A stretch of DNA of 51,180 nucleotides from assembly GCA_027451445.1 (NCBI GenBank), contig DAIDJG010000205.1:1-51180 (forward strand), in the 5' to 3' direction. Position 1 is the stretch's first letter. Each line of letters begins with the position of its first letter. Below the pieces are notes generated by a model. The model was not told the DNA's origin and did no database searches. It saw nothing but the letters and a program-made list of their open reading frames with translations. The DNA is from Singulisphaera sp. (GTDB lineage: Bacteria > Planctomycetota > Planctomycetia > Isosphaerales > Isosphaeraceae). Both the position numbers and the translations under genes were made by a program. Below, piece by piece: positions 4,585 to 49,535 of this stretch.

Positions 4585-4754
4585 GAGTCTGTCCCGGAAG
4601 CGGAGCCGAAAAAGGGGGAATGGCTCCGAGTCTTCGAGGTGCCTGTCCCCCTTTTCCGGCGGAGCGAGAAGCGTGGAAATGGGGACAGGCACCGACCGAA
4701 GACGTCCGGAGCCAGTCCCCATTTCCACGCTTCTCGCACTATTGGGACAGACTC
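4585..4754. repeat. Nested inverted repeat with GGGACAGGCACC motifs
   Basis: The outer arms are GAGTCTGTCCC (4585-4595) and GGGACAGACTC (4744-4754). Inside, a perfect 22-bp pair (4664-4685 with 4716-4737; GCGAGAAGCGTGGAAATGGG...) encloses GGACAGGCACC. That motif is itself inverted against GGTGCCTGTCCCC at 4639-4651. The nesting gives several alternative hairpins. It is non-coding as far as can be seen. Confidence 0.85.
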
Positions 4755-4805: not shown

Positions 4806-4895
4806 ATCTTCGTTTCCTTCGTTTCCTTCTGTTCAGATTTGAGTTTCGCCGACCGGAACAAATCTTGAACAGAAGGAAACGAAGGAAACGAAGAT
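4806..4895. repeat. Long inverted repeat with internal CGTTTCCTT direct repeats
   Basis: The left arm 4806-4835 is an exact 30-nt reverse complement of 4866-4895. Pairing extends a further six bases with one bulge (CAGATTT against AAATCTTG). Each arm is built of repeated CGTTTCCTT units. The loop is about 20 nt. The hairpin lacks a following T-run, so it is not a typical intrinsic terminator. Confidence 0.88.
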
Positions 4896-7155: not shown

Positions 7156-7270
7156 TTGATATTGGATGCTCGCCGTTAACTTAAGGCGGTTCACAATTGG
7201 ATTTCGCACACCGGACCGCGATTCTCACTCCCGTCGCAAGGACGGAACATATAACTCCCCCCCCTTGGGA

Positions 7271-8457
7271 CTGGTGACCCGACACTTTTGCGGGTAGGGA
7301 AAGGCGGACGTTCATGAGCGTGCGTAGAAGGGATAGAAACACTCCCTTCGGAGCCAACCCATGAACGCCCTCTCTCTGGTACGCAAGTGGCGGAAGGATG
7401 TTCAAAACGACCTCCTGCCCGAACTTCATGGCCATCAATCTAAAGCCATGGCCGATCTGAGCTTCGGCATGACGCTCGCCCAACACAGTCAGAGCGGTAA
7501 GATCGCCGACGCTGTCCCGGGTGAGGCCACACCGGCCAGCGTGCAGCGACGAGTCGAACGATTTCTGGACAATAGCCGGATCGACCCGGACAAGATTTGG
7601 CCCCAGCTCGCCAAGTCGTCTCTCGCGGGCTGGACCGGCGGACCGATTGTGCTGATCCTCGACGAGACTCCGAATCACAACGATCTGCGGTGCATGAAGG
7701 TGACCTTGGCCTTTCGCAAGCGCGCCTTGCCACTCGCATGTGTCTGCTACAGCCTGGGAGAGCAGCCTGAGCCGATGCCCGAACTGGTCGTGGGTTTGCT
7801 CCGACAGGTAGCGGCCTGCCTGCCCGATGGTGCTGATGTCACACTCTTGGCGGATCGCGGCCTGGCTTGGCCGCAAGTCGTCGATACCTGCGAAGAGTTG
7901 GGTTGGCATTACGTGCTGCGGTTGCTGAGTCAAACCCGAGTTCGTACGCCGGATGGTCGAGAGTGCTCGGCGGCGGACTTGGCCCCACACCCGGGGGCTT
8001 GTTGGAGAGGTGAGGCTCTCGTCTTCAAGAAATCGGGGTGGCGCAACGCGGCAGTCGCCGCGTGTTGGTTGCCGGACAGTGACGGACCGTGGTTGCTGGT
8101 CAGCGATCGCGACGACGGCCCGCGGTTGTTCCGTCGGTACTCCAAGCGGGTGTGGACGGAGGAGTTGTTCAAAGATGAGAAGTCGTCGGGCTTTCACTGG
8201 AACGAGAGCCATGTCACTGACCCAGTCCATGCGGCTCGCCTGGTGCTGTTGATCGCCCTCGCCACGTACCTGACGATGGCAGTGGGTGTAAAGGTGATCC
8301 GAGCCGGGATGCGGCGGTTCCTTGAAACAAACCGCCAGCGGAAGCTGAGTTACTTCACCATTGGGATCAGGTGGGTAAGGTTCTGTCTGAACCACGATCG
8401 CAGCCTTCCCGATAACTTGACCCCGGTCCCGATCTAGCAAAAGTGTCGGGTGGCCAG
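7271..8457 (+). mobile_element. IS4-family insertion sequence, 1187 bp, intact
   Basis: The terminal inverted repeats are 21 bp: CTGGTGACCCGACACTTTTGC at 7271-7291 and, inverted at 8437-8457, CTGGCCACCCGACACTTTTGC (two mismatches). They bracket one transposase gene whose stop codon overlaps the right repeat by one base. Directly outside is an 8-bp direct repeat, CCTTGGGA, at 7263-7270 and 8458-8465, which I read as the target-site duplication. The undisturbed sequence of the host repeat, seen elsewhere in the window, contains CCTTGGGA once. This confirms insertion into that repeat. Confidence 0.93.
7361..8437 (+). CDS. IS4-family transposase
   Basis: The 358-aa DDE transposase fills the IS. 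The first catalytic Asp is in LILDETPN (about residue 105) and the second in LLADRGLAW (about 167). The third acidic residue is in the IS4 signature Y-(2)-R-(3)-E-(6)-K, seen exactly as YSKRVWTEELFKDEKS near residues 262-277. The frame is uninterrupted, the catalytic residues are intact and the flanking repeats are well preserved, so the copy may still be active. The start ATG follows a purine-rich stretch (GGGATAGAAAC... then CGGAG). Confidence 0.95.
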   Translation: MNALSLVRKWRKDVQNDLLPELHGHQSKAMADLSFGMTLAQHSQSGKIADAVPGEATPASVQRRVERFLDNSRIDPDKIWPQLAKSSLAGWTGGPIVLILDETPNHNDLRCMKVTLAFRKRALPLACVCYSLGEQPEPMPELVVGLLRQVAACLPDGADVTLLADRGLAWPQVVDTCEELGWHYVLRLLSQTRVRTPDGRECSAADLAPHPGACWRGEALVFKKSGWRNAAVAACWLPDSDGPWLLVSDRDDGPRLFRRYSKRVWTEELFKDEKSSGFHWNESHVTDPVHAARLVLLIALATYLTMAVGVKVIRAGMRRFLETNRQRKLSYFTIGIRWVRFCLNHDRSLPDNLTPVPI

Positions 8458-8828
8458 CCTTGGGAAGGGGGGGTTGGGGGGGGGTGGGCAGCGACCTCGG
8501 CTACCGGCTTAGCGCCCGAACCATGTTGAGGATGCCCTCGATGTCATCGGAAATGAAGCGATGGCGATGGTTATGGGCCAACGCCCGTGGATGGCGCTCA
8601 ATGCCCACCCCCCCAGCCCCCCCTTCCCAAGGGGGGGAGTTAATATGTTCTTCGCTTGTGGAGGGGTTCGGCGCACCGCTTCGACCCGCTACCAAACGAA
8701 TTGTGAATGAAAGGCGCGCCTCGATCCGGCAACTCCGGTCGCGGCTCTTCAGTTGAGTGGCTATACTGGTACGATACTCACCACCCCACGCTCGCCTTCG
8801 CGACACCAAACCCTCGGGAATCCCAAGG
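8458..8828. other. 371-bp gap before the helicase gene
   Basis: The first ~250 bases are the right half of the interrupted family B repeat. A possible promoter for the helicase gene lies near the end: TATACT at 8762-8767, with TTGAGT just upstream at 8753 but badly spaced. It is weak evidence and not called as a separate site. No gene was seen. Confidence 0.5.
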
Positions 8829-11108: not shown

Positions 11109-11210
11109 ACTCCCTCCCCCCTTGTGGGGGAGGGTTGGGGTGGGGGGTTCCGGCGGCCACGGGTGGTGCGTCCCCCCACCCCAGCCCTCCCCCACAAGGG
11201 GGGAGGGAGT
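11109..11210. repeat. Family A palindrome, copy 1 (102 bp)
   Basis: The left arm 11109-11147 (ACTCCCTCCCCCCTTGTGGG...) is the near-perfect inverse of the right arm 11172-11210. The 24-nt centre reads TTCCGGCGGCCACGGGTGGT.... Copy 2 at 17004-17103 keeps the same arms and the same centre with a few changes. It lies between the helicase gene and pdxJ. The arms carry G and C runs of up to six, so hairpin or G-quadruplex formation is possible. Confidence 0.92.
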
Positions 11211-15193: not shown

Positions 15194-15630
15194 GCGTTCG
15201 CAGTCTTTTGTAGCGTGGGCGCAGCCCACCTCCGTTTGCGTGACGGAGATCAAAGACTCCCCCACTTGGGAAGGGGGGATAGGGGGGGGTGGGGATTCAA
15301 CGCTCGTATACGGCTAGACCCGTGCCCCTCAACCGTAAAACGCCGGAGATCGCGGTTCGTGGCGATGCTGCACACATCGAACCGCCAATCCCCACCCCCC
15401 CTAACCCCCCCTTCCCAAGGGGGGGAGTTATGAGCTTTTGAACTGGGTGGTGAGATACCGTGTACAACTCAATCGCAAACCGTCCTCGATCACGGATGAC
15501 CGAAGGCGAACGCGAAACGGCGATGCGAGATCGCCACGCAGAACTCGGATTGATCGGCGCGCCGGCACGGCTAGCCTAATTGGCGCGTCCTTGGTTTCGT
15601 CGGATCAGGGATGAGGGAGCAGCGACGGCC
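15194..15630. other. 437-bp gap carrying a family B inverted pair
   Basis: Most of the gap is the repeat pair at 15256-15428. After it comes unremarkable sequence with a GAGGGAG stretch (15613-15619) that may serve the lpxC-fabZ start. No gene was seen. Confidence 0.6.
15256..15428. repeat. Family B inverted pair, upstream of lpxC-fabZ
   Basis: The left unit 15256-15295 (ACTCCCCCACTTGGGAAGGG...) is inverted relative to the right unit 15389-15428 (TCCCCACCCCCCCTAACCCC...GAGTT). The spacer is about 93 nt. Each unit also contains a short internal palindrome around CTTCCCAAGG. The same unit is seen at 7253-8641 and 48215-48312. Confidence 0.9.
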
Positions 15631-17003: not shown

Positions 17004-17103
17004 ACCCCCTCCCCCCTTGTGGGGGAGGGCTGGGGTGGGGGGTTCCGGTGGCCACGGGTGGTACGCCCCCCACCCCAACCCTCCCCCACAAGGGGGGAGG
17101 GAG
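17004..17103. repeat. Family A palindrome, copy 2 (100 bp)
   Basis: The left arm is 17004-17042 and the right arm 17066-17103, with the centre TTCCGGTGGCCACGGGTGGT.... It is almost identical to the copy at 11109-11210, including the centre. It lies between lpxC-fabZ and lpxA. Weaker inverted sequence continues outside the arms (CCGCTCAA near 16961 and TTGAGCGG near 17136). Confidence 0.92.
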
Positions 17104-17211
17104 ATAGAACGTTCATTCGCTCTTGTTTAGGGCTCATTGAGCGGCATTCCAGGTTCGACGCCAGGGACGGTGTCGAAGCCAGATCTCTCAAGGACGGGAG
17201 AATCTTCAGCC

Positions 17212-47442: not shown

Positions 47443-49535
47443 ACTCCGTACCGGCCCTCGACGTGCAACAGTTCGAGAGGCCCTGTTGGGCTGGCTTGTT
47501 TGGGGGGCGCGGCAATGACGTAGTCCGCGCCCTGGCGCCGCGCGAGGGCCGCGCGCTCGGTGTCGCTGAGGGCCTGGTAGCGCTGCTCCAGGCCGTGTCG
47601 GTCGTTTTGATAGGACCGCACAAAGGCGGCCGGGGTGGAGTGGTCGCCGACGTGGTCCTGAAACCGTCGGAACCAGTCGCCGAGTCCCGCCGCCGTGTAG
47701 GGGCTCGCCGCTCGGTTGAAGGCGACGCTCCGCAGCGACCAGAGCCGAAACGTCTTGGGCCCCGGCGGTCCGACAAAACGGGCGTCGCGCGGGGTATGCT
47801 CCCGGCACCACACGGCGAGGCGCTCGATGTCGTCGACGGGCGTCGCGGTAAACCGGCAGCGCTCGACGAGGGCGACCTGCCAAGGCGAAGCGTGGCCGCG
47901 TTCAACGCGTGCAGTAAGTGCAAGCGACAAGGCCGGAAGCGCCCACGCCGCCAGCAGGGCGGCGACCACGCGCCGCCGATTCCAATTCGGTCGGGTGGGC
48001 ACGGCCCACCGGATTTGATCTGAAGTAGCGGGCCGTAACCGCGTTAGGACGTGCTGCAACGCTCGGCTCGCGATGACTGCGGCTGTCGCGACGAACAACG
48101 GTATGTGGCCCGATTCGGTATCGTGTCGGGAAAGGAACCACAACCCGGCGCCGAGGGTTGCGACTACGACGATAAGCCGGCCCCATGCTGGGAGAGCGTC
48201 GGCGACCGTCTGCTCCCCACCCCCCCTAACCCCCCCTTCCCAAGGGGGGGAGTTTTTTGATGACGGAGCGCTTCTTAATTCCCCCCCTTGGAAAGGGGGG
48301 GTTAGGGGGGGTAAGCAGAGGGCTACGCCAACGGAGAACGCCCAGTCCGCAACGCGATCGACGACAGCAACCGCCGCATCAAAAAGCGTCGCCACCACAA
48401 ACGCCCAATCTCCCGCGAGTCCCACACCCAGCAGCGCCACGCGCACCCGGTCGATCAGCCGGCCGCTTCGCCACAGCGACACCAAACGGCCGCTCGCCAG
48501 GACGAGCGCGACTCCACGCGCCACCGTCGCGAGCCGGAACGGCTGAAACAACGTGAATCGCAAGTCGCGCACAACTTCGACCGCCACCCAGGACACACCC
48601 AAGGCGGCGAGAATCACGACCAGCACCGCCGCAAGCCGCACCTGTGCTCCCCCCGAGGGATCATCGCGGCTCCGTTCCATCCACCCGAGCCCCGCCAGCA
48701 CTAGGTAACACCCCCACGCAAGCCATTGTGGCAGTCGCCAGAGATGCGGAACCATGTGCTGCGGCCCCTGAAGCTCGACGCTCAGGAGACGAAAATCCTC
48801 CGCAGGCAACCCGTCCAGCAGATTCCCGCCCTGACCCATGTTCAGCACGAGCCCCGGCAGAAGCGCAACCCCAAGCCAGACAAGCCCCCCGATCAATCCG
48901 CGAACCCCGAACGTCCCGCCGCGTGCGTTCGCGAACCACACAACCCAGCTCGCCCCCAACACCGTCGCGAGTTGAAGCCCCAACGAAGGATGAATCAGCG
49001 TCGCGAGCCCTAGACATACCGGGCCAACCACTGCCCCACGCCAGGGCCGCTCCACCGCGACTGCGAGCGCAACCCAAGCCAGCGCAAACGCCATCAACCG
49101 ATCGAGGAGCATAGCCTCGAACAGGTGATTCGTTCCCACATTCCCCGCCTTGGCGATCAACACACACCCAATCGCGGCGAGCCCCGCGAGCGAACCGCCC
49201 TCAGGCCAAACCGCGCGTGCCAGCCGATCCACGCCCCAGACCGTACCCAGAAACGTCAACGCGAACAGTGCAAACAGCCCCGCCGACAGTCCTGCGGGCC
49301 GTGAGACCCAGTCCAGTAGCGTCAAGGAACCGACGTGCGGGTTGAAACGATCGAAGGCCCGGACGAACGGGTCATTCTCGAAGATCGTCGGGTCCTGTTG
49401 ATGGATCAGCAGCGGCAGACGGTAGGCGTGGTCGCCATCGCGGCTGTGATATCCGCGCAAGGTGAGATATAGACCGAAGATCAGGATATAGAGCAAGACA
49501 CGTGGGAGCGGGCGGGCAGGCGTCGACTCGTCCAT
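47388..49535 (-). CDS. Polytopic membrane protein with a repeat-derived insert
   Basis: The 715-aa protein has about ten helices, then a soluble C-terminal domain from about residue 540 ([26 protein letters not shown]). The overall plan resembles GT-C-type or DUF6798-like membrane proteins of planctomycetes. I am not sure of the family. Near residues 408-440 the chain reads [12 protein letters not shown]...[13 protein letters not shown]. This is the translation of the palindromic repeat pair at 48215-48312, sitting in a loop between two helices. The start at 49535 is followed by a helix at about 12-28. Its 3' end overlaps glyA by 55 bases. Confidence 0.8.
48215..48312. repeat. Family B inverted pair inside a coding sequence
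   Basis: The first unit 48215-48254 (CCCCACCCCCCCTAACCCCC...GAGTT) and the second unit 48278-48312 (AATTCCCCCCCTTGGAAAGG...) are inverted with a 23-nt spacer. The order of units is the reverse of that at 15256-15428: here the CCCCACC ends point outward. The minus-strand frame stays open through both units. Confidence 0.92.

Follow-up and report, generated by a model that had tools for sequence, protein, structure and literature searches.

The window, a 51,180-nucleotide stretch of Singulisphaera sp. DNA, carries a cut-and-paste IS4-type insertion sequence (IS) that, with a probability that we put at about 85%, inserts into GC-rich palindromic repeats at their dyad axis, with duplication of roughly 10 bp of the target. 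The hairpin formed by such a repeat is supported as the preferred target of the element in this genome and is probably its exclusive one. Nine IS ends could be read, and all nine lie within units of two hairpin families, six in family B and three in family A, in agreement with the suggestion of the preliminary description that the hairpin is a preferred target.

The element and its transposase

The IS is 1187 bp long (7271–8457, forward strand) and starts with 5'-CTGG. It is bounded by matching terminal inverted repeats, located at 7271–7291 on the forward strand and at 8437–8457 on the reverse strand, so that its ends read CTGGTGACCCGACACTTTTGC and GCAAAAGTGTCGGGTGGCCAG, respectively. A single open reading frame without a frameshift (7361–8437, forward strand) encodes a DDE transposase of 358 amino acid residues, as judged from Pfam, NCBIfam and motif positions. 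Its score against the Pfam family DDE_Tnp_1 (34.7 bits) is above the cut-off of 23, and its score against the NCBIfam family IS4_2 (117.5 bits) is below the cut-off of 152. The catalytic residues D101, D165 and E267 are separated by 63 and 101 residues, which falls within the D(60-110)D(100-150)E spacing of the IS4 family, and the Y-(2)-R-(3)-E-(6)-K (YREK) signature of that family (PMC2266710) is complete (YSKRVWTEELFKDEK, residues 260–274). The other IS4 family features are also present, namely one uninterrupted ORF, terminal inverted repeats and a target duplication close to one turn of the helix in length (10 bp both at acpS-uvrD and in a 73%-identical relative). Assignment of the element to the IS4-family type is thus supported. 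A PDB sequence search gave no relevant match.

The genome surveyed is a 10.88 Mb draft in 622 contigs. It contains one full copy of the IS, the one in the window, and seven further ends that are 100% identical to it. All seven are found at contig ends, as expected, because identical repeats break draft assemblies. These seven and both ends of the full copy make up the nine readable ends.

Junctions in the window and the target duplication

The element directly abuts an exact copy of CCTTGGGA on both sides (7263–7270 and 8458–8465). On the left, this copy ends the outer half of a family-B hairpin unit (7253–7270) and is not followed by the AG seen at other junctions. On the right is the inner part of a family-B unit that belongs to the acpS-uvrD locus (8458–8488), and the other family-B unit of this paired-hairpin element, in inverted orientation, is found at 8604–8641. 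The preliminary description of an IS4-type element exactly flanked by CCTTGGGA within a family-B hairpin was correct, including its coordinates. The 8-bp sequence occurs nine times in the window, against 1.6 occurrences expected, since the family-B hairpins have it as their core. Further family-B units are located at 15256–15297 and 48219–48254, with inverted units at 15387–15428 and 48277–48312. Units of family A, the second hairpin family used by the IS elsewhere in the genome, are located at 11109–11147 and 17004–17042, with inverted units at 11172–11210 and 17066–17113. The window also contains long inverted repeats of other types, with 72-nt arms at 81% identity (1150–1308), a perfect 30-nt pair (4806–4895) and a 31-nt pair (4664–4737), whose AAATGGGGAC motif is also found at the end of contig C98 (L081).

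The preliminary description took the 8-bp repeat for the target duplication of a single insertion and the locus for a clean before-and-after view of that event. Removal of the IS and one copy of CCTTGGGA indeed yields AACTCCCCCCCCTTGGGAAGGGGGGG, a family-B variant seen elsewhere, but one with eight C residues instead of the usual seven, so the unit is restored in a known form and not in its common one. At four other family-B outer junctions, which read ...CCTTGGGAAG|IS, the element sits 2 bp further in than at the left junction in the window, and the direct repeat in the window looks like 8 bp because this left junction lacks the final AG of a 10-bp core. When the right flank in the window is combined with the end of contig C122, its partner by synteny, a perfect 10-bp repeat CCTTGGGAAG is obtained (the right copy is at 8458–8467, the partner copy is the end of C122) and the paired-hairpin element is restored. 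The three family-A ends, which synteny suggests to represent three different loci, fit a 10-bp duplication CCCACAAGGG in the same register. In both families, the centre of the 10-bp duplication lies no more than 0.5 bp from the dyad axis. Ten base pairs is the best-supported duplication length, the sole full pair having been assembled through synteny only, and the 8-bp CCTTGGGA is probably not a true target duplication. Comparison with every other junction, with synteny and with the relatives led us to reject it as the likely insertion scar. Differing duplication lengths had been named beforehand as grounds for doubting the repeat; such lengths were found, and they speak against the 8-bp claim while leaving the target preference untouched.

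Synteny of the flanking regions

The gene to the right of the IS in the window, uvrD, comes after ilvD-acpS in the same-genus genome G001. In the genome studied here, ilvD-acpS is located on contig C122, which ends in a family-B sequence followed by the left end of the IS. The BatA-like gene to the left of the IS in the window has its counterpart, in G001 and G013, just beyond the metallophosphoesterase gene that is carried here by contig C315, and this contig ends in family B and the right end of the IS. In G001, BatA and uvrD do not lie side by side. The synteny of the flanks, together with the complementary IS ends on C315 and C122, indicates that the window contig most probably consists of halves of two different IS-occupied loci, metallophosphoesterase-BatA on the left and acpS-uvrD on the right. 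Their junction would have arisen either through misassembly across identical IS copies or through recombination between two such copies, two events that look the same in a draft genome, and what seemed a clean insertion would then combine the flanks of two.

It is accordingly unlikely that one IS entered, at 7263–8465, an intact family-B hairpin lying between uvrD and the BatA-like gene and truly duplicated the 8-bp CCTTGGGA. Such a single insertion would account for the exact 8-bp repeat and for the family-B variant left on IS removal, and it could draw on an 8-bp duplication in one distant relative with different ends and on the range of 8–10 bp in the subgroup IS4Sa (PMC2266710). Against it stand the four outer junctions located 2 bp further in, the perfect 10-bp repeat obtained with the synteny partner, and the separation of BatA and uvrD in the same-genus genome, their ancestral neighbours here bearing complementary IS ends.

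A third locus, addB-addA, is split by the IS in this genome (addB on C106, addA on C123), and the two genes are adjacent in G001, G002 and G013. At this locus and at metallophosphoesterase-BatA, outer hairpin halves are found on both sides of the IS and there is no direct repeat (contig ends L084 and L082 for addB-addA; the L080 end and window positions 7253–7270 for metallophosphoesterase-BatA). Either each unit of the pair carries its own IS, with a short middle piece missing from the draft, or recombined copies have lost the middle. A solo palindrome as the target at these two loci was considered and rejected, as all 43 distinct family-B units examined read outward-in, with the same orientation of the GGG loop.

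The comparison with an IS-free genome that had been proposed did not yield an empty hairpin site. The orthologous gaps of G001 (L045, L112 and L115), which correspond to acpS-uvrD, addB-addA and metallophosphoesterase-BatA, lack the IS and also any family-B hairpin, and a genome that has the hairpin yet lacks the IS was not encountered. The hairpin elements have therefore been gained or lost since these two genomes parted.

Target preference in the genome

Read outward-in, the sequence of the hairpin units is AACTCCCCCCCTTGGGAAGGGGGGGTAGGGGGGGTGGG in family B and ACTCCCTCCCCCCTTGTGGGGGAGGGTTGGGGTGGGGGG in family A. Units with exact cores number 239 for family B and 143 for family A genome-wide, and the reversed control patterns had no matches. 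At about 38 bp each, the exact-core units account for some 0.13% of the genome, a figure that leaves variants out. The nine ends represent about six loci, as judged from gene content and synteny, so that the chance of finding all six in hairpins under random insertion is about (0.0013)^6. Within each hairpin family the IS uses one position, except for one end that is displaced by 2 bp. Nine other DDE_Tnp_1 loci of the same genome have no family-A or family-B unit in the flanks examined (up to 1.5 kb on each side); several distant transposase loci without automatically found IS ends were left out as target evidence.

The expectation that targets would be enriched for the CCTTGGGA core holds for the six ends in family B but not for the three in family A, where the sequence is CCCTTGTGGG. 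The CCTTGGGA core is thus no general target rule, and the feature common to the targets is their position at the dyad axis of a palindrome.

It is very unlikely that the IS inserts at random and merely persists in expendable intergenic hairpins. Judging by the genes of the window and by the contig ends, the hairpins here do seem to lie between genes, but such survivorship would need all six loci to lie in some 0.13% of the genome and, one end apart, to share a single base position per repeat family, and the nine other DDE_Tnp_1 loci show no association with hairpins. That the IS spreads when hairpin copies recombine or undergo gene conversion, instead of by targeted transposition, is the least probable of these explanations: the repeats are numerous and alike, and footprints of recombination exist (the two loci with outer halves on both sides, and two of five copies without a duplication in the genome G031), but the IS occurs in two different repeat families and in both orientations, and the paired locus shows a 10-bp duplication.

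Related elements in other genomes

The closest relative measured (73% identity, in G017) has a 10-bp duplication, GGTCCGGAGG, with TCCGGA at its centre, and its site lies outside hairpin repeats. Distant relatives with about 26–31% identity have duplications of 10 bp (three Deinococcus elements), 9 bp (one Deinococcus and two cyanobacterial elements) or 8 bp (one Chloroflexota element, with different ends), and the Deinococcus and cyanobacterial relatives, at about 30% identity, have no strong axis at the insertion site. A copy with 75% identity (L039), whose contig bears the label of a Streptosporangiaceae MAG but may be misbinned, has no target duplication and adjoins another inverted repeat (GGGTCCGGCTTCAGTCGGACAG ... 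CTGTCCGACTGAAGTCGGACCC).

Genome G031, from the same family but another genus, contains five copies of a 32%-identical IS of 1306 bp. All five adjoin halves of the palindrome GTCTTCCCCCCTCGCGGGGGAAGAC or of its loop variants, which constitute a third palindrome family; the 21-bp core of this palindrome, with up to two mismatches allowed, occurs 141 times in the genome. An 11-bp duplication, CCCCTCGCGGG, whose centre coincides exactly with the axis, accompanies three of the copies. The remaining two (L052 and L059) have none; one is flanked by half of one loop variant of the palindrome on one side and half of another variant on the other, and the second has lost bases beside the IS. The listing of copies in this genome and its relatives thus reveals palindrome targeting here and in G031, but not in the 73%-identical relative. 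Because that relative occupies a non-hairpin site and the relatives with about 30% identity show no strong axis, hairpin targeting is a strong preference in these two lineages and not a rule of the whole group.

Comparison with known systems

In 2006, Tobes and Pareja surveyed how IS elements insert into palindromic repeats of bacteria (PMC1525189), and palindrome targeting by an IS4-family element has been known since then from ISRm22 of Sinorhizobium meliloti (subgroup IS4Sa), with ten of ten copies in REP elements, at the palindrome axis (PMC1525189, PMC2266710). The present case is a well-documented further example. De Palmenaer et al. also noted, in 2008, that the targets of ISRm22 and of some elements of the IS4 subgroup are strongly conserved (PMC2266710). 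Like ISRm22, the element described here has an IS4-family DDE transposase, has all of its copies within repeated palindromes and inserts at the axis. Both elements also have some copies with unmatched direct repeats, for which Tobes and Pareja proposed recombination between ISRm22 copies (PMC1525189). In contrast to ISRm22, it has CTG ends (CA in IS4Sa) and a duplication of 10 bp (6 bp reported for ISRm22), and it uses two unrelated palindrome families. The IS10 subgroup shares its 5'-CT ends, small size and complete YREK motif, but differs in reported length (1200–1350 bp against 1187 bp) and duplication (9 bp against 10 bp), and the cited literature gives no REP targeting for it. Since the element ends in 5'-CTGG and not in 5'-CA, and owing to its duplication length and size, it fits neither IS4Sa nor IS10 exactly. 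Reuse of one position in repeated extragenic palindromes is likewise known for IS1397, IS621, ISPpu9 and ISPpu10 (PMC1525189), but those belong to the IS3 or IS110 families and employ other chemistry; several IS110-type elements select their targets via bridge or seek RNA (PMC11208160, PMC11187229). With all copies in repeated palindromes at the same position, save one end that is 2 bp off, the element shows the type 1 REP association of Tobes and Pareja. For Gemmata, our literature search yielded no account of such repeats being targeted by IS elements.

Mechanism and significance

The transposase itself may recognise the symmetric target, as has been proposed for other REP-specific insertion sequences. 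Going by the mechanism of the IS4 family, a transposase dimer would most likely capture the dyad-symmetric GC-rich target, and the two IS ends would be joined to opposite strands at points that lie 10 bp from each other, on either side of the axis. We consider it possible, though on balance doubtful, that this group of transposases responds to a structure and not to a fixed sequence, namely to the dyad axis of a GC-rich palindrome or to the hairpin extruded from it. The axis-centred targets CCTTGGGAAG and CCCTTGTGGG in this genome and CCCCTCGCGGG in another genus can be cited for such a reading.

The window also serves as a caution that IS-in-repeat junctions of draft genomes can mimic clean insertion scars. 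The results extend hairpin-targeted transposition by IS4-family elements to this host and provide a test system in which a single IS exploits two palindrome families within the same genome and a third is used by a distant relative, which lets one ask whether the transposase reads the sequence or the shape of a palindrome. If structure is what is read, different lineages of these elements may colonise whichever hairpin family their host has.
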